Of a stretch of 64,000 nucleotides of DNA, positions 3,864-10,814 are shown in pieces. The stretch covers positions 149,308-213,307 of the forward strand of contig JAPPFB010000021.1 in assembly GCA_028875225.1 (NCBI GenBank). Reading direction: 5' to 3'. This stretch comes from Chloroflexota bacterium. GTDB taxonomy: Bacteria; Chloroflexota; Dehalococcoidia; Bin125. A program made the translations under genes and the position numbers. How positions within the stretch are numbered: position 1 is the first letter of the stretch; each line of letters starts with the position of its first letter. The notes under the pieces are model-generated. The model worked only from the letters and a program-made list of their open reading frames with translations, had not been told where the DNA came from and did no database searches.

Positions 3864-6197
3864 CTAGCGCGGACTGATCGGTTTCGGCGGTAGATCGTCC
3901 GGTGATTGCTTGGCGGTCAGTCCGGCGGCGACGCCTCGCTCCATCAACTCATCGATCGCTTCATCTGTGAGACAGAGCGTCTCCCTGAGGATCTCAACCG
4001 AGTGCTCGCCCATTCGCGGGGCCGGCGTCGAGCATGAGGCGGGCCGCCTGCTCAACCGCCAGGGAAATCCCTGGTATTGCCGTGTGCCGGTATCGGGATG
4101 CGTCAGCTGCAGCCACCAGTCACGGGCGGCCAGATGCGGATCCCGCAGATGAGTCAGGGTCGAGTGCACCGCGGCGGCCGGGACACCGATCGCCTGCAGC
4201 CGGTATTGCAACGTGAGCGCGTTCCAGCGGCGCGTCCACTCGCTCAGGGCCGACTCCAACGCAACCTCATCGTCCTTCCGGCCCGTCGCGGTGCGCCACT
4301 CCCGACGATCGAGCCCGGCAAACGTTGCCAGTCGCTGCCAGGTCTCGTCGTCGGGGACCGAGATCGCGATCCACTCGTCGTTGCCGTCGACGCTGTCGGC
4401 GCAGCGGAAACACTCGTGCGGCGCCGCGCCGGGAATCCGATTGCCGTTGCGCGCCGGCATCTCCTGCCCCGCCGACGCCGCCAGCAGGTATTCGTCGATG
4501 TAGGCGACCGCCGATTCAAACATCGAACCCTCGACGTGTATCGCCGACCGTTCCGACTGGGCTCGCAACGCCGCCGCCAGGGCCGAGGCCGCCATCTGCG
4601 CGCCAACGATCGGGTCGGCCTGCATGGTGCCCAGCATCACCGGCTTGTCGCCCCGGTAGCCCAGCAGCAGATCCCATCCGGCGTTGCCCTCGGTCGTGCC
4701 GCCGTTGGCGCGGAAGTTGTCGTAAGGGCCGCCGGTGCCGAATCCCGAGAACGAGACCAGCGCGACGTGCGGGTTGACCTCGCGCATGTGCTCGTGGGTC
4801 AGGCGCAGGTTCTGCAACACGCGCGGACGAAAGTTCTCCAGCACTACGTCGGCCAGCGAAATCAGGTCGAGCGCCAGCTGACGACCTTCGTCCGTGTCGA
4901 GCGCGATCGAGATCGTTCGTTTGCCGCGATTCGCCATGTTGAAGTTGGGCCGGACGTTCAGCGGGTGCGCGTCCGGCGAGGCGACCCGCATCGGGCCGCT
5001 CGCCTCGTAGCGCCAGAGGTCGGGGCGCTTCGGCCCCTCCACCTTGATCACTTCTGCGCCCAGATCGTTGAGCAAGCCCGACGCATACGGTCCCAGCCAG
5101 GCATGGGTGAAGTCGACCACCCGCAGTCCGTCGAGCGGGCCGGTCGAGCGTTCAGGTGGCCGCCGCAGCGCGAACCGATCGGGGCGCTCCTCCCGATTCT
5201 CGACCTCTGTGACCCGCATCGCCCGGCCCGCTCCCGTCAGACCGCTGTTACTACGAAAGAAATCAATGGCCTGGAGTTGCGGATCCTCGAGCAGCTGCCG
5301 CGCCGAGCGGTGCATCGCCATCACTGAACCCAGCTCCGAGAGCTTCGTCCAGATCGTCGTCGCGTCCAGCGACTCGACGATCGGCCGTACATATGCCAGC
5401 GACGGCTCCTGCTCGGCGAAACGGCCTCTGCCCTCCAACAGTTCATCTGGCGGCGGATCACAGCCAAACGCGATCGGCGCGTTGCGCAGCGTTTCCCTGG
5501 ACCAGGGCGAGAGGGTGATGTAGCCGTCGACCGTCTCCATCACCTCGGCCCAGCCCGGCGTCCCACCGACGCGCGGCAGCGCCTCGCCCAGGAACTCGGA
5601 GCGCAACGACATGATCAATGTCGAGCAGGCTTCATGCGAAGACAATTCAATCCACTCGCCCCGGCCCGAGTGCATCCGCTCGAGCAGCGCCGCCAACGCC
5701 GCCACGGCGCCCAGGATGCCGATCGCTCGGGGGATGATCGCCGCCGGAGCTGCCAGCGGTTCCTGAGGCGCGACGCCATTCGTCCCGGCGAAGCCGGACA
5801 ACGCCTGGATGATGAGATCGTCGGACAGGTAGTCGGCATACGGACCATCGGTCCCGAACGGCGACGAGTGCACGACAACCAGCTCGGGAAACTCGTCGGC
5901 GATCCCATTCAGTTCCGCCAGCGGCGCGTCCGTCACGAAGACATCCGCGTCGGGGAGCTCGGCTCGCCAGGACCCCGTTGGCGACATCTTGCCGATCATC
6001 AACGACTCGCGCAGCAAAGAAACGGTTTCGCCGTCTCGCTCGATCGTTGGCGGGGCTGAACGCAAATGCGAATCGGGCGCTTCGAAGACCGAGACCCGTG
6101 CGCCCCAACGCGAGAACTCTCTCGCGCAGGCCGCCGCCGGTACGTCGCCGCTGTACTCGACGACGCGGATGCCGCTCAGCAGATTGCCGTCCGACAC
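3864..6197 (-). CDS. CaiB/BaiF-type (class III) CoA-transferase, tandem two-module protein
   Basis: The 777-residue protein has two CaiB/BaiF modules in one chain; usual family members have about 400 residues. The N-terminal module begins GIRVVEYSG and the C-terminal one LDGLRVVDFTHAWLGPYA, with GLLNDLGAEVIKVEGP. The catalytic Asp of formyl-CoA transferase-type enzymes is expected shortly before the G...LAALLxR helix. The C-terminal module has it (MQADPIVGAQMAAS) but the N-terminal module has IIPRAIGILGAVAAL with no Asp, so probably only one module is catalytic. It would move CoA between carboxylic acids. It lies 13 bases downstream of a crotonase on the same strand, so the two may act in one acyl-CoA pathway. 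The substrate is unknown. Confidence 0.85.
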   Translation of the reverse strand: MSDGNLLSGIRVVEYSGDVPAAACAREFSRWGARVSVFEAPDSHLRSAPPTIERDGETVSLLRESLMIGKMSPTGSWRAELPDADVFVTDAPLAELNGIADEFPELVVVHSSPFGTDGPYADYLSDDLIIQALSGFAGTNGVAPQEPLAAPAAIIPRAIGILGAVAALAALLERMHSGRGEWIELSSHEACSTLIMSLRSEFLGEALPRVGGTPGWAEVMETVDGYITLSPWSRETLRNAPIAFGCDPPPDELLEGRGRFAEQEPSLAYVRPIVESLDATTIWTKLSELGSVMAMHRSARQLLEDPQLQAIDFFRSNSGLTGAGRAMRVTEVENREERPDRFALRRPPERSTGPLDGLRVVDFTHAWLGPYASGLLNDLGAEVIKVEGPKRPDLWRYEASGPMRVASPDAHPLNVRPNFNMANRGKRTISIALDTDEGRQLALDLISLADVVLENFRPRVLQNLRLTHEHMREVNPHVALVSFSGFGTGGPYDNFRANGGTTEGNAGWDLLLGYRGDKPVMLGTMQADPIVGAQMAASALAAALRAQSERSAIHVEGSMFESAVAYIDEYLLAASAGQEMPARNGNRIPGAAPHECFRCADSVDGNDEWIAISVPDDETWQRLATFAGLDRREWRTATGRKDDEVALESALSEWTRRWNALTLQYRLQAIGVPAAAVHSTLTHLRDPHLAARDWWLQLTHPDTGTRQYQGFPWRLSRRPASCSTPAPRMGEHSVEILRETLCLTDEAIDELMERGVAAGLTAKQSPDDLPPKPISPR

Positions 6198-6210
6198 AGG
6201 ACGAATCTCT

Positions 6211-7023
6211 CTAGGAATGACCCGGCTTCTGCAGCTTGGCCAGCGCCTGCGCCACAGGCGAGAGCTGGCGTTTTCCCTGCACCATGCGTGGGTCGGGCTG
6301 ACCGAACCGCGCGCCGGTGGCGTAGGTCATGAAGCTCGCGTTGATGTGGGTGGTGAATCCCTGCGCGTCTTGCATGTTGTTGATCGAGTGCTTGATCTGG
6401 CGCAGCGACATCGGCGTGCGCTGGGCGACCTCGCCCGCATAGGCCAGCGTCTTCCGCTCCAGCGCCTCGGCCGGATAGACCTGGTTGACGAAGCCCAGTT
6501 CCTTCGCTTCGCGAGCGGGGATGAACCGGTTCTGGAACAGGATCTCCTTGGCCTTGCGCACGCCCAGGTCCCAGGGCGCCGAAAAATACTGTGTGTGAGA
6601 GGGCAGGAAGAGCGCATCGTCGGAGGCGAAGATCAGGTCCATCGAGGCGGCCACCATCCAACCGCCGAAGATGCACTTGCCGTGCACCATCGCGATCGTC
6701 GGCTTGGGGTTGTTGCGCCAGCGCATGGTGTTCGCAATCCGCGTGTCGCGCTGTCGGTCGAACACGCCGACAAAATCCTCGGCCCAGCCGCGAATCTCCC
6801 GGTCGGCGATCTCGGATGGCGAACCGAGATCGTGACCGGCGGAGAAGTCAGGACCGTTGCCCGAGAGCACGATGACCAAGACCTCCGGGTCGTCGGCCGC
6901 CTCCTGAAAGGCCCGGTCAATCTCCTCCAACAGGACCCGCGACTGCGCATTGCGGTACTCGGGCCGGTTCATGATCACGCGAGCGACCGGGCCCGGCTCG
7001 TAGATCACTTCGTGGTACGTCAT
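6211..7023 (-). CDS. Enoyl-CoA hydratase/isomerase (crotonase) family protein
   Basis: The 270-residue crotonase-fold protein has the oxyanion-hole regions SGNGPDFSAGHDLG and VHGKCIFGGWMVAASMDLI. These bind the acyl-CoA thioester carbonyl. The length is typical. The C-terminal region (FTTHINASFMTYATGARFGQPDP) resembles crotonases annotated as enoyl-CoA hydratases rather than dehydratase/thioesterase members. The exact reaction cannot be assigned from sequence. It is the first gene of a two-gene minus-strand unit with the tandem CoA-transferase. Confidence 0.85.
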   Translation of the reverse strand: MTYHEVIYEPGPVARVIMNRPEYRNAQSRVLLEEIDRAFQEAADDPEVLVIVLSGNGPDFSAGHDLGSPSEIADREIRGWAEDFVGVFDRQRDTRIANTMRWRNNPKPTIAMVHGKCIFGGWMVAASMDLIFASDDALFLPSHTQYFSAPWDLGVRKAKEILFQNRFIPAREAKELGFVNQVYPAEALERKTLAYAGEVAQRTPMSLRQIKHSINNMQDAQGFTTHINASFMTYATGARFGQPDPRMVQGKRQLSPVAQALAKLQKPGHS

Positions 7024-7083
7024 GGCATGCTCCGCTCAGCGGGTATGGACAACAGTGCGAGGCTATCAGCGACCACTTGGGGG

Positions 7084-7875
7084 TTAGACGAACGCCTCCA
7101 GCAGGAGCACTTCGACGACCTGATTGAATTCGTCCGGCAGTTCCCAATAGACGCTGTGCCCGGCCTCGGGGACCTGGATGTACTGAGCGCCCGGCACCAT
7201 CTGAGCAGCGCGTTCGATCAGCTCGGCCGGAATGATCGCGTCTTCCGCGCCGGCCAGGAAGATCGTCGGCATGGTCAGCGCCGACAGCTTGTCCTTCGAT
7301 ACCGCGCCGTCTTCCTGGCCGAAGGCGAGCGGCTGATTCGGATCGAGCGGGGGATTCAACCCTCTGATCTGGTTGTAAAGGAACACGCCGTTCGGCTCAC
7401 GCTCGAGGTAGGCGGGGCCGACCATCCGCGTCAACCCGCCCTGTTCCTGGTTGACCTGCGCCGACTCGACTGCCTTGCGCATCTCCTGGACCAGCTCCGG
7501 CGCATCAATGCCGAGGAAGGTGTCGGCCATCAACAGACCCTTGACCCGCTGCGGGTTGCGCACGGCGAAGGGCAGGATCGTGAACCCACCCATCGACTGA
7601 CCGACCAGCACCGCCTCGGGAATCTCGAGCGCATCCATCAACTCGCCCAGGTCGCGCGAAAACGCCTTGCGGCCCTCGCCCGAGTCGTCGCGGCTGCGTC
7701 CCCAACCGCGCACCTCGTAGGTGATGCAGCGATAGCGGTCGCGGAAGACCGGAATCTGCTGCCACCAGCTCAGATGGTTTCCGCCAGCTCCATGCACGAA
7801 GATGATGGTCTCGGGGCCATCGCCGAACTCGTCGTAGATCAACTGCCCACCGGTAACATCCAGCGTCTGGGCCAT
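7084..7875 (-). CDS. Alpha/beta hydrolase
   Basis: The 263-residue protein has a canonical alpha/beta-hydrolase fold: FVHGAGG oxyanion loop, nucleophile elbow GQSMGG, acid in LAGAEDAIIP, and catalytic His in PEAGHSVYW. The ATG at 7875 is preceded by a strong ribosome binding site (GGAGG). The open frame continues upstream for 138 codons, but that part is antisense to the first AhpD-like gene. The substrate is unknown. The gene is divergent from the selenoprotein pair across about 96 bases, so the two promoters probably share that interval. Confidence 0.88.
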   Translation of the reverse strand: MAQTLDVTGGQLIYDEFGDGPETIIFVHGAGGNHLSWWQQIPVFRDRYRCITYEVRGWGRSRDDSGEGRKAFSRDLGELMDALEIPEAVLVGQSMGGFTILPFAVRNPQRVKGLLMADTFLGIDAPELVQEMRKAVESAQVNQEQGGLTRMVGPAYLEREPNGVFLYNQIRGLNPPLDPNQPLAFGQEDGAVSKDKLSALTMPTIFLAGAEDAIIPAELIERAAQMVPGAQYIQVPEAGHSVYWELPDEFNQVVEVLLLEAFV

Positions 7876-7971
7876 GTTGTTGCCTCCTTGCCGTCGCATG
7901 CACCTCAGGCTTGCAACCGAGGTGCGGATCGGACTAAACGCTACTCTCTTGTCAGGTTGCGAGGTGCAGGA

Positions 7972-9030
7972 ATGGCCTTTGAGTACGCCGGCGTCGATTT
8001 GCCCATTCGCGAGAAGACAATCGCGTCCCAACGCATGAGCTGGGAGATGATCGCCAACCCCGGCCGCTGGTGGACGGGCGCGGAACGCGTTGAGATCGCG
8101 AGAATCGGACGCGCGGCGCGAGACTTTGAGGTCGTTGGCAGCGAGATCCTGCCCGAGGCTGCCGTCTACGCGATCCAGAAGCTGGTCGTCGACAACGCCA
8201 ACCTCAACCGCGTGTGGTACGAGGAAATCATCGCCTCCGACGGCATCACCGAAGACCGCTACGTGGAACTGGTCGCCGTGGTCGTCCACGCGCTCTCAAT
8301 CGACGAGTTCCACCGTGCCCTGGGCCTTGAACTCGAACCCCTGCCCGACCCTGTACGTGGCGAACCCACGCTCCAGCGACCGGCAGAGGCAGAGCAGCGG
8401 TACTCCTGGCCGCCCATCGTGCCCAAGTCCGGACTCAACCCCGGCGACGAGATGCTCTACGGACCAATGGAGTGGGGCGCCAACGTCATCTCGGCGCTCT
8501 CGCTGATTCCTGAGAACGTGCGCTGGCTGCACGACCTCTCCGAGGGTCACTACCTCTCGTTCGCCGAGATGCGCCAGCCCGATCCGCTGCGGGCCATTTC
8601 GCGCTCGCAGATTGAGCTGATCGCCGCGCGGGTGTCGGCGCTGAACGAGTGCTTCTATTGAACCGCCTCGCACGTGCGCATGCTCCGTGAGAGCAGCAAA
8701 CGCAGTGGCACCCTCGACCAGCTCAACCTCAAGGGCACGGTGAATGCCGACGCCGACAGCGGCGTCCCGCAGGGCAGCCTGCTGACCGCATTCGCCGAGG
8801 CCGCCGTCCGCCGGACCGACGCGCTGCCCGGCCTGCGCGAGCAGATCGCGTCGGAGCTCGGCGCGCAGGAACTGGTTGACGCCGCCGGCGTGGTGGCCAA
8901 TTTCCAGCGCATGGTCCGGATCGCCGACGGCTGCGGGATCCCGCTCGACGAGTTCACCAGGGACGCCACTGACGATGTTCGCGATGAACTCGGCATTCAT
9001 GAATATGCCTCGGCCGCCAACACCGTCTGA
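7972..9030 (+). CDS. AhpD-like (carboxymuconolactone decarboxylase family) selenoprotein, Sec at codon 230
   Basis: A single gene is read through the UGA at 8659-8661 as selenocysteine, giving 352 residues. The C-terminal half has the AhpD-type active site: ELIAARVSALNECFY, then UGA, then TASHVRML. The family has CxxC followed by SxH here, so the UGA occupies the second redox Cys (CxxU). The same frame stays open 123 codons beyond it with family-like sequence (VVANFQRMVRIADGCGIPLD). The N-terminal half is a second AhpD-like module (GRWWTGAERVEIA, LPEAAVYAIQKLV) that has lost its redox cysteines. A SECIS-like hairpin follows the UGA. It probably acts as a thiol/selenol peroxidase or reductase; the substrate is unknown. 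The next gene is a close paralogue. Confidence 0.87.
8678..8697 (+). promoter_or_regulatory. SECIS-like hairpin of the first AhpD-like selenoprotein gene
   Basis: A seven-base-pair stem (GC, bulged A, TGCTC / GAGCA, GC) closes a five-base loop CGTGA with GU near its 5' side. The loop begins 24 bases after the UGA. Bacterial SECIS elements sit just after the UGA with a G in the first two loop positions and a 16-37 base separation, all of which fit. Confidence 0.7.
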
Positions 9031-9044
9031 TCCCGGAGTCCCGG

Positions 9045-10139
9045 ATGACCTCCACCGCAGCGATGTTCTCCTACGCCGACACCGCCTGGCCCGTGCTGGA
9101 ACGCACGGCCGAAGCGCATCGCCGCAGCTGGGACATGCTGGCCGCGCCAGGCGAATGGTGGACCGGCGCCGAGCGGATCAGCATCGCTGCCGAGTGCCGC
9201 CGCGCGTCGGCGCTGGTGGACGGCCTGCCCGATCCAGGGCCTGGGCCGGCCGAACTGCCCGAGGCCGCCGTCTTCGCCATCCACAAGCTGATCGGCGATC
9301 TGCCCAACGTCACTCACGATTGGTACGACGAGACGATCAGCGCCGAAGGCATGTCCGACGCGCGCTACATCGAGATGCTGGGCGTCGTGGTCCATATCTG
9401 GTCGGTCGACGAGTTCCACCGCGCGCTGGACATTGACCTGGAGCCGCTCCCCGATCCGATTCCCGGAGAGCCGACGCAGGTTCGCCCCTCTGGAGCCAGG
9501 GCGCACGGCAGTTGGCCGCAGACGATCCTGCCGGAAGATCTGCACGAGAGCGAAGCGGACATCTACGGCGGAATGGAGCGCACATCCAACGTGCGCGCGG
9601 CGATGAGTCTGCATCCCGACAGCGTGCGCTGGCTGACCGATCTCTTCGACGCCCACTATCTGAGCTGGATTGAGATCCAGTCCGAGCAGGAGCCGTTCCG
9701 CGTACTCACGCGGCCGCAACGCGAGCTGGTCGCAGCCCGCGTCTCGGCGCTCAATGAGTGCTTCTATTGAACGATTTCCCATGTGATGCTGCTCGGTCGG
9801 AACAGCGAAGGCAACGAAGCGCTCAACCTGAACGGCACGGTGCGCAACGAGGTCGACAGCGGAATCGAGCACGGAGACGTGCTGCTGCGTTTCTCCGATG
9901 CCGCCGTCGGCCGCTCCGATGATCTCGCCGCGGCGCGCGAGGCGCTCAGTGTCGCCATGGGCCCCGACGCAGTCGTCGACTGCGCCGCAACCATCGCCAA
10001 CTTCCAGCGCATGGTCCGCATCGCGGACGGCTGCGGCATTCCCCTGGACCCGTTCTCAAGGGAAGAATCGGCGAAGTGGCGAGACGGCCTCGGCATCGAC
10101 AACTTCCGCAGCCGGGGGAATACGTTCAGCCAGGCCTGA
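9045..10139 (+). CDS. AhpD-like (carboxymuconolactone decarboxylase family) selenoprotein, Sec at codon 242
   Basis: This is a tandem paralogue of the preceding gene, 14 bases downstream. Reading the UGA at 9768-9770 as Sec gives 364 residues. The context is ELVAARVSALNECFY, UGA, TISHVMLLG, the same CxxU-x-x-SH active-site pattern as its neighbour. After the UGA the frame continues for 123 codons with matching sequence (TIANFQRMVRIADGCGIPLD). The N-terminal module (GEWWTGAERISIAAE, LPEAAVFAIHKLIGDL) again lacks the CxxC. Independent conservation of the extension in two copies argues strongly against a nonsense mutation. Its own SECIS-like hairpin lies at the same distance from the UGA. A conventional annotation would stop at residue 241 and call a separate small ORF. 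Confidence 0.87.
9788..9806 (+). promoter_or_regulatory. SECIS-like hairpin of the second AhpD-like selenoprotein gene
   Basis: The stem GCTGCTC / GAACAGC (seven positions, one C-A mismatch) closes loop GGTCG. The loop starts 24 bases after the UGA, exactly as in the neighbouring paralogue, although the primary sequence of stem and loop differs. Confidence 0.68.
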
Positions 10140-10162
10140 CTACAGCCACTCCCCTGCCCCGT

Positions 10163-10294
10163 GCCCCGACGCGGGGCTCAGACCTCGGTTGTCGTTCAGG
10201 ACGACGCGCCGTTGCTTGGCTCGGCCTGCAGCAACTGAAAGGTCGCCCCGCCGTCGGCGTTGGCTGCGCTGGGCCCCGCGTCAGAGCGCGGGGC
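10163..10294. repeat. Paired GC-rich palindromes in inverted orientation (REPIN-like)
   Basis: Two hairpins, GCCCCG-ACG-CGGGGC (10163-10177) and GCCCCGCG-TCAGAG-CGCGGGGC (10273-10294), flank 95 bases in the gap between the second selenoprotein gene and the convergent ribH. A similar pair occurs at 50712-50875. The arrangement of two palindromes pointing at each other resembles REP doublets. It could also serve as a bidirectional terminator. Confidence 0.5.
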
Positions 10295-10325
10295 ATCGAG
10301 AACTTCGGGTGGAGGACAGAGATTG

Positions 10326-10814
10326 CTATTCGATCGTCGCCAGCAGCCGGGCGATCTCAATCGCCGCCTGGGCTGCCTCTTCGCCTTTGTTGCCGGCTGA
10401 GCCGCCGGCTCTGGCCATCGCCAGGGCCACCGTCTGCGTGGCCAACACCTCGAAGATCACCGGCACGCCCGTGTCCAGCCCGACCCTCGCGATCCCCTGT
10501 GTCGCGCCGTCCACGACGAGCCGGTAGTGATCGGTTTCACCCAGGATCACCGCGCCCAGGCAGATCACGGCGTCAAACCGGCCGGTCTGGGCGCACTTCT
10601 GTGCGGCGATCGGGATCTCGAATGCGCCGGGCACCCAGTAGATGTCGATCTCGTCGCTGTCGGCGCCGTTCTCCTCGAGATGGTCGATGCAGCCGTCGAG
10701 CAGCTTGCTGGTCACGAAGTCGTTGAACTTGCTCACCACCACGGCAAAGCGCAGACCGCTGGCTGGCCCGTGTTCGGGATCCGGATTCGCCGCGCCGTCG
10801 TGGACTCTTGGCAT
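10326..10814 (-). CDS. ribH: 6,7-dimethyl-8-ribityllumazine synthase
   Basis: This 162-residue enzyme condenses 5-amino-6-ribitylaminouracil with dihydroxybutanone phosphate in riboflavin synthesis. Diagnostic segments are VVVSKFNDFVTSKLLDG, the substrate-binding VPGAFEIP, GAVILGETDHYRLV with the catalytic-region His, and the C-terminal GNKGEEAA. It is the last gene of the ribD-ribE-ribBA-ribH set, 17 bases after ribBA. The N-terminus has about 20 extra polar residues before the conserved core. All four enzymes of the late pathway are clustered here. Confidence 0.96.
   Translation of the reverse strand: MPRVHDGAANPDPEHGPASGLRFAVVVSKFNDFVTSKLLDGCIDHLEENGADSDEIDIYWVPGAFEIPIAAQKCAQTGRFDAVICLGAVILGETDHYRLVVDGATQGIARVGLDTGVPVIFEVLATQTVALAMARAGGSAGNKGEEAAQAAIEIARLLATIE

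Follow-up and report, generated by a model that had tools for sequence, protein, structure and literature searches.

A tandem pair of putative AhpD-related selenoprotein genes in a Chloroflexota bacterium

Introduction

Within the 64,000-nucleotide stretch of Chloroflexota DNA analysed here (‘the window’), two neighbouring genes, termed A and B, seem to stop too soon. Standard open reading frame (ORF) calling ends both at an internal UGA and lists small GTG-started ORFs beyond (8674-9030 and 9783-10139), so that standard annotation leaves both genes broken into fragments; an earlier note on this DNA had foreseen this outcome, two truncated genes plus two small ORFs. Are the UGAs ordinary stops, or do they encode selenocysteine (Sec) and, if so, what proteins result? 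The earlier note proposed a tandem pair of AhpD-like selenoproteins. We put the probability at about 0.85 that A and B are indeed a real, well-supported selenoprotein gene pair of a known family, NF041238, organized as a bicistronic unit; Sec insertion and catalysis are both inferred from the sequences.

The gene pair and its surroundings

With TGA read as Sec, the coding spans extend over 7972-9027 (A) and 9045-10136 (B), each with one internal UGA. The features of the pair, in window coordinates, are these:

7961-7966, plus strand: Shine-Dalgarno-like GAGGTG upstream of gene A, by consensus resemblance only
7972-9030, plus strand: gene A, putative AhpD-related selenoprotein of 352 residues, Sec230, with its UGA stop at 9028-9030
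7972-8361, plus strand: N-terminal AhpD-like module of A, predicted to lack the catalytic helix and without Cys
8398-8979, plus strand: C-terminal AhpD module of A, the presumed active one, with E215, C227, Y229, U230 and H234
8659-8661, plus strand: in-frame UGA (Sec) of gene A in the CFYU motif, residue 230, present in 15/15 A-like genes (13 of the genus and both copies of genome G017)
9034-9038, plus strand: Shine-Dalgarno-like CGGAG upstream of gene B, by consensus resemblance only
9045-10139, plus strand: gene B, putative paralogous selenoprotein of 364 residues, Sec242, starting 14 nt past the gene A stop
9768-9770, plus strand: in-frame UGA (Sec) of gene B in the CFYU motif, residue 242, present in 13/13 B genes

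After the internal UGA, both genes run on for 122 further sense codons and then reach a UGA stop of their own; with U itself, these are the 123 codons to a common end that the earlier note had counted. Proteins A and B are 49% identical over 356 aligned columns, and the alignment crosses the UGA, in keeping with the homologous downstream parts that the earlier note had described.

A promoter scan found none, terminator-like sites occurred near chance level, and an Rfam scan of 7800-10400 returned nothing relevant. The neighbours—CoA-transferase, enoyl-CoA hydratase and riboflavin genes—are conserved in the genus; they are unrelated to A and B and give no clue to function. An 890-aa open frame (window 5989-8661, plus strand) lies antisense to three minus-strand genes and runs into gene A; we rejected it as a gene and attribute it to high G+C.

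Conservation of the UGA and of the sequence beyond it

For comparison we assembled 28 genes from 14 genomes, 13 of them of the genus (the source genome included) and one, G017, of another genus in the same family. The CFY-UGA arrangement is kept in all 28 genes, and none has Cys at that position; the motif CFYUT is common to both proteins and to every aligned gene. The UGA aligns with the second active-site Cys of AhpD proteins, where the earlier note had placed it in both paralogues. Between 118 and 127 codons follow it in 28/28 genes. By the Nei-Gojobori method, dN/dS is 0.134 upstream and 0.147 downstream of the UGA in A, and 0.152 and 0.207, respectively, in B. The sequence past the UGA is under purifying selection in both genes.

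These observations bear on an alternative in which translation simply ends at the UGAs: A and B would be truncated or decaying genes, and the ORFs beyond either remnants or small proteins started separately at the GTGs at 8674 and 9783. Standard ORF calling gives exactly this picture, but we consider it very improbable: the codon is UGA and never UAA or UAG in 28/28 genes, with the same frame continuing for 118-127 codons; dN/dS is well below 1 before as well as after the UGA, a codon that falls inside the AhpD domain; and synonymous constraint peaks just past it. Homologues lacking sequence beyond the UGA, which the earlier note said would tell against Sec, were not what we found, for the downstream sequence is kept in them.

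The note had also suggested a search for homologues with Cys in place of the UGA. Among the full-length genes this yielded none (0/28), but among shorter AhpD-like matches in other Chloroflexota genomes two (L045 and L050) have Cys, against 32 with UGA at the same column. Single-module AhpD-like CxxU proteins are very common across Chloroflexota (L068-L094), and at nearly all of the loci retrieved the second active position is UGA rather than Cys. Across samples of the phylum and of the class, full-length members of the family were confined to the genus, to G017 and to four genomes from two further families (G555, G708, G716 and G629), the sampling being within Chloroflexota; all have UGA. No relatives were found in viral contigs and plasmids, and a scan of a contig collection found them only in four Chloroflexi/Dehalococcoidia MAGs of the same clade.

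Selenocysteine machinery

The source genome (3.2 Mb, 29 contigs, 96% complete) encodes a tRNA-Sec with anticodon TCA (UCA; 68.2 bits), a SelB of 622 aa, SelA (520.6 bits) and SelD (353.8 bits; G000:C23:272746-273687, L029). The absence of selB and tRNA-Sec, which the earlier note had named as grounds for abandoning Sec, is thus not what the genome shows: tRNA-Sec, selA, selB and selD are all there. The selD gene has an in-frame UGA of its own, in ...ARCGGUGSKFG..., and is itself a selenoprotein gene.

A third gene, resembling carboxymuconolactone decarboxylase (CMD) and located about 8.4 kb from selA (L003, G000:C12:40327-40575, minus strand), contains an in-frame UGA of the CxxU type in ...EINECSVULATRSA...; it likely encodes a further selenoprotein. 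Two genomes of the same genus (G002 and G003) lack both genes of the pair and have selA, so the pair can be lost while Sec use persists.

In-frame UGAs in several genes (A, B, selD and the CMD protein on contig C12) could also suggest that UGA has been reassigned to one of the standard amino acids, for instance Trp or Cys. We regard the chance of this as close to negligible, however, as UGA terminates A and B themselves, the other in-frame UGAs occupy Sec positions (selD, CxxU), and tRNA-Sec, SelA, SelB and SelD are present.

SECIS-like hairpins

Selenocysteine as the reading of both UGAs is further supported by the sequence just downstream, where each gene has a hairpin:

8680-8696, plus strand: SECIS-like hairpin of gene A, stem 8681-8685/8691-8695, loop CGUGA at 8686-8690
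9789-9805, plus strand: SECIS-like hairpin of gene B, loop GGUCG at 9795-9799

The loops begin at 8686 and 9795, exactly at the distance, 24 bases past each UGA, that the earlier note had given. In an alignment of 74 nt round the UGA, an almost invariant hairpin, UGCUC-[CG]GU-two bases-GAGCA, stands out; 24 nt lie between the UGA and the loop, in which GU is invariant (28/28). In the six-pair register 91% of stem cells are paired, compared with 23-58% in slid registers. Compensatory (double-sided) changes in the hairpin pairs were absent from the 28-gene alignment. The folding energies of the single sequences are no better than those of shuffled ones (z -0.54 and +0.72), and an argument from the hairpin of one sequence is weak for that reason.

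The best argument for a SECIS is synonymous constraint at the level of codons. Among 365 nine-codon windows, the excess of synonymous identity is greatest in that beginning 4 codons past the UGA. Within the hairpin, CTC (Leu) is kept in 28/28 genes, and the next codon, Arg or Gly, retains its third-base T even though A and B do not share the amino acid. On the evidence of conservation and synonymous constraint, rather than covariation, we take the hairpin to be a probable bacterial SECIS.

Family assignment

Both proteins match NCBIfam NF041238 (AhpD_rel_CFYUT, ‘alkylhydroperoxidase-related (seleno)protein’) over its full length: A scores 352.7 bits over profile positions 1-356, and B 341.8 bits over 3-357, against a curated cut-off of 175 bits. 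The family has a history. In the 2005 Sargasso Sea selenoproteome it was represented by four Sec-containing sequences, for which SECIS elements were predicted; homologues with Cys came from the sea itself as well as from organisms already known (PMC1088965). A 2026 review lists NF041238 as ‘hypothetical protein 1’ of the Sargasso Sea metagenome, with the motif CxxU (PMC13188914). The kind of selenoprotein is not new, therefore, having been catalogued since 2005, in agreement with the earlier note's remark that AhpD-like selenoproteins had been reported before (PMC13188914, PMC1088965).

Duplication of the pair

Twelve of the 14 genomes have A and B side by side, 13-100 nt apart. In the tree they form one clade each, and the first gene of G017 joins A while the second joins B (95/86); when more distant rows are added, the grouping of B stands at 90/90 and the fork of A is drawn open. 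Since the G017 copies sort with A and B respectively, the duplication probably predates the split of the two genera. In G629, from another family, the C-terminal part of one gene is followed directly by the beginning of another, which the contig end cuts off, and the tandem pair is probably common to this third family as well. The first gene of G629 (L122, about locus 1242, minus strand) has its N-terminal part swapped for unrelated sequence in the same open frame, which is either an assembly join or a real fusion. The exceptions are these: G005 has A only, the B of G014 is found far from its A, G009 adds a distant B to the pair, and G002 and G003 have neither. The two distant B copies (G014 and G009) group together in the tree. 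Both copies of the tandem pair have kept Sec.

Persistence of both copies, and of their order, would be explained if A and B together made up one heteromeric enzyme. They are adjacent in those 12 genomes, 13-100 nt apart, the order is the same in the second genus, and the proteins are 49% identical; against this, G005 has A only, the B of G014 lies elsewhere, G009 has an extra distant B, and each protein already has two AhpD-like halves. We think a heteromer unlikely. As to novelty, the tandem pair is absent from the section on selenoprotein operons in the 2026 review (PMC13188914), and our literature search found no precedent for a tandem NF041238 pair. The earlier note had called a tandem pair with Cys-less N-terminal modules unusual. 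The tandem arrangement is a new detail; an N-terminal half without Cys has a precedent in the Cys forms of this layout described in 2024 (PMC11429811).

A predicted double AhpD fold

The AlphaFold model built from the 28-row alignment is moderate (pLDDT 77.7, pTM 0.82). Its C-terminal half (about residues 143-335) matches AhpD structures with Z up to 13.2, and the debrominase Bmp8 as well as these (Z 13.0). The best whole-length matches are to human Sestrin2 (Z 15.3-16.7 over 236-243 residues, rmsd 3.2-3.5, 9-10% identity), and beyond the Sestrin and AhpD groups Z drops to 3.1 at the first row. Predicted on its own, the N-terminal half has a pLDDT of 85.6, and the first seven rows are AhpD-family structures only, with modest Z of 5.5-7.5 over 85-89 residues. 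The chain span aligned in these comparisons is 115-120 residues, so that the alignment leaves out some 28 residues of the AhpD core, which would correspond to the catalytic helix. Each protein is accordingly predicted to be a fused double AhpD fold, with an N-terminal half that keeps the AhpD core and has probably lost the active site.

That these N-terminal modules lack the active-site Cys, as the earlier note had observed, is correct; the single Cys there in protein B, located in the preceding helix (AAECRRAS), is unrelated. More distant members do have a CxxC there: CALC in the second gene of G017 (L110), CTLC in the second gene of G629 (L122) and CGLC in G716 (L125). It lies 9 residues past the [IV]A (or IV) of the preceding helix, and the C-terminal half has the same spacing (IA...NEC). 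The CxxC is absent from A, B, the first gene of G017, G555 and G708. Profile comparison of the two halves with hhalign gave no signal (Neff about 2), and the case for internal duplication consequently rests on the predicted structure and the CxxC spacing. Loss of the N-terminal CxxC is likelier than gain, given as this is on an unrooted tree in which G716 has a very long branch. The second gene of G017 and the gene of G716 combine an N-half CxxC with a C-half CxxU; the L110, L122 and L125 members are possible two-site enzymes. The N-terminal half has its own invariant residues in the 28 genes (W24, W33, W34, G36, R39, D111, E112, H114 and R115), and is thus kept under selection rather than decaying.

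Proposed mechanism

The residues E215, C227, Y229, U230 and H234 are invariant (28/28), in the arrangement E-(11)-C-F-Y-U-(3)-H. In the AhpD-type protein YP_296737.1, E74, C86, Y88, C89 and H93 are the proposed proton relay of these oxidoreductases (PMC4674687), and the active-site spacing of A and B is the same. By analogy, the pair may function as hydroperoxidases. By the known pathway, SelB carrying Sec-tRNA would bind each hairpin, and Sec would be inserted at the UGA. The Sec selenolate would then, as the most likely chemistry, reduce a hydrophobic hydroperoxide; the neighbouring C227 would resolve Sec as a selenylsulfide, and a cellular thiol donor would recycle the enzyme. The inactive N-terminal half might serve as a built-in dimer partner or as a binding surface.

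A and B could also be selenoproteins that are not peroxidases, and engage instead in thiol-disulfide or selenylsulfide exchange, act like a dehalogenase-type reductase, or serve as sensors. Our literature search found no assay of the NF041238 family, the C-terminal half matches Bmp8 (Z 13.0) as well as it does AhpDs (Z 13.2), and PF02627 also includes decarboxylases. Set against these points are the E-C-Y-C(U)-H set and its spacing, which are those of AhpD-type hydroperoxidases, and the NCBIfam name, alkylhydroperoxidase-related. A function other than peroxidase is a minority prospect that deserves to be kept in mind; peroxidase remains the reading we prefer.

Comparison with known systems

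The closest known system is NF041238 itself, the ‘hypothetical protein 1’ of the Sargasso Sea, which A and B resemble in a full-length match at about twice the cut-off, in CFYUT and CxxU, and in the bacterial SECIS; what differs is that there are two tandem paralogues here, and that neither has a Cys motif in its N-terminal half. The AhpD-like 1 and AhpD-like 2 selenoproteins (COG2128 / PF02627, about 200 aa; PMC2398784) share the active module, with CxxU in the same column, but are single modules without the N-terminal half of about 140 residues. Mycobacterium tuberculosis AhpD (1knc) resembles the C-terminal half in fold (Z 8.5) and in CxxC/CxxU and His spacing; unlike A and B, it is single-domain and Cys-based. 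Escherichia coli YciW, a double AhpD named in PMC11429811, gave no match to NF041238.

Human Sestrin2 (5t0n, 5dj4, 5cuf) is the best whole-length fold match of the predicted model (Z 16.7, 242 residues, rmsd 3.2), and it too has one active half and one without the catalytic helix. In Sestrin, however, the active half is N-terminal and bears the catalytic Cys, whereas in A and B the CxxU helix-turn-helix lies in the C-terminal half and the N-terminal half has no Cys motif; identity is 10%, and the helix-loop hinge DDYDY of the Sestrin C-terminal half is absent from A and B. The Pfam Sestrin model matches neither protein up to E = 1. We therefore rejected the idea that A and B are Sestrins, there being no Pfam match, halves in opposite order and no hinge motif. 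One could go further and view NF041238 proteins as mirror-image counterparts of Sestrins, derived from an ancestral CxxC/CxxU double AhpD whose N-terminal half turned to binding or sensing, with A and B as a heteromeric selenoenzyme; we hold this to be speculative and rather doubtful. A literature search largely confined to papers outside subscription found nothing linking the family with Sestrin architecture.

The find is real, and mostly ordinary: the new details, a tandem layout and a probable stepwise loss of the N-terminal site, are modest. They matter in two ways. NF041238, known by its motif alone since 2005, now has a defined, if predicted, architecture of two fused AhpD modules, one of them dead. 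And the distant members whose N-terminal half carries CxxC form a natural series in which to study a question raised in work on Sestrins, namely the route by which a fused AhpD comes to lack the active site in one of its halves. A similar layout is found among the fused AhpDs of Corynebacterium ureicelerivorans and Comamonas aquatica, described in a 2024 review that had sought Sestrin-like architecture in bacterial proteins (PMC11429811); in these the C-terminal half has two Cys and the N-terminal half none. Compared by description only, they share with A and B the two AhpD-like halves per chain, the active C-terminal half and the absence of Cys from the N-terminal one. They differ in using Cys instead of Sec, and the N-terminal half of the Corynebacterium protein is said to keep the helix-turn-helix (PMC11429811), whereas that of A and B is predicted to lack the catalytic helix. 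A and B look like the Sec version of this layout.
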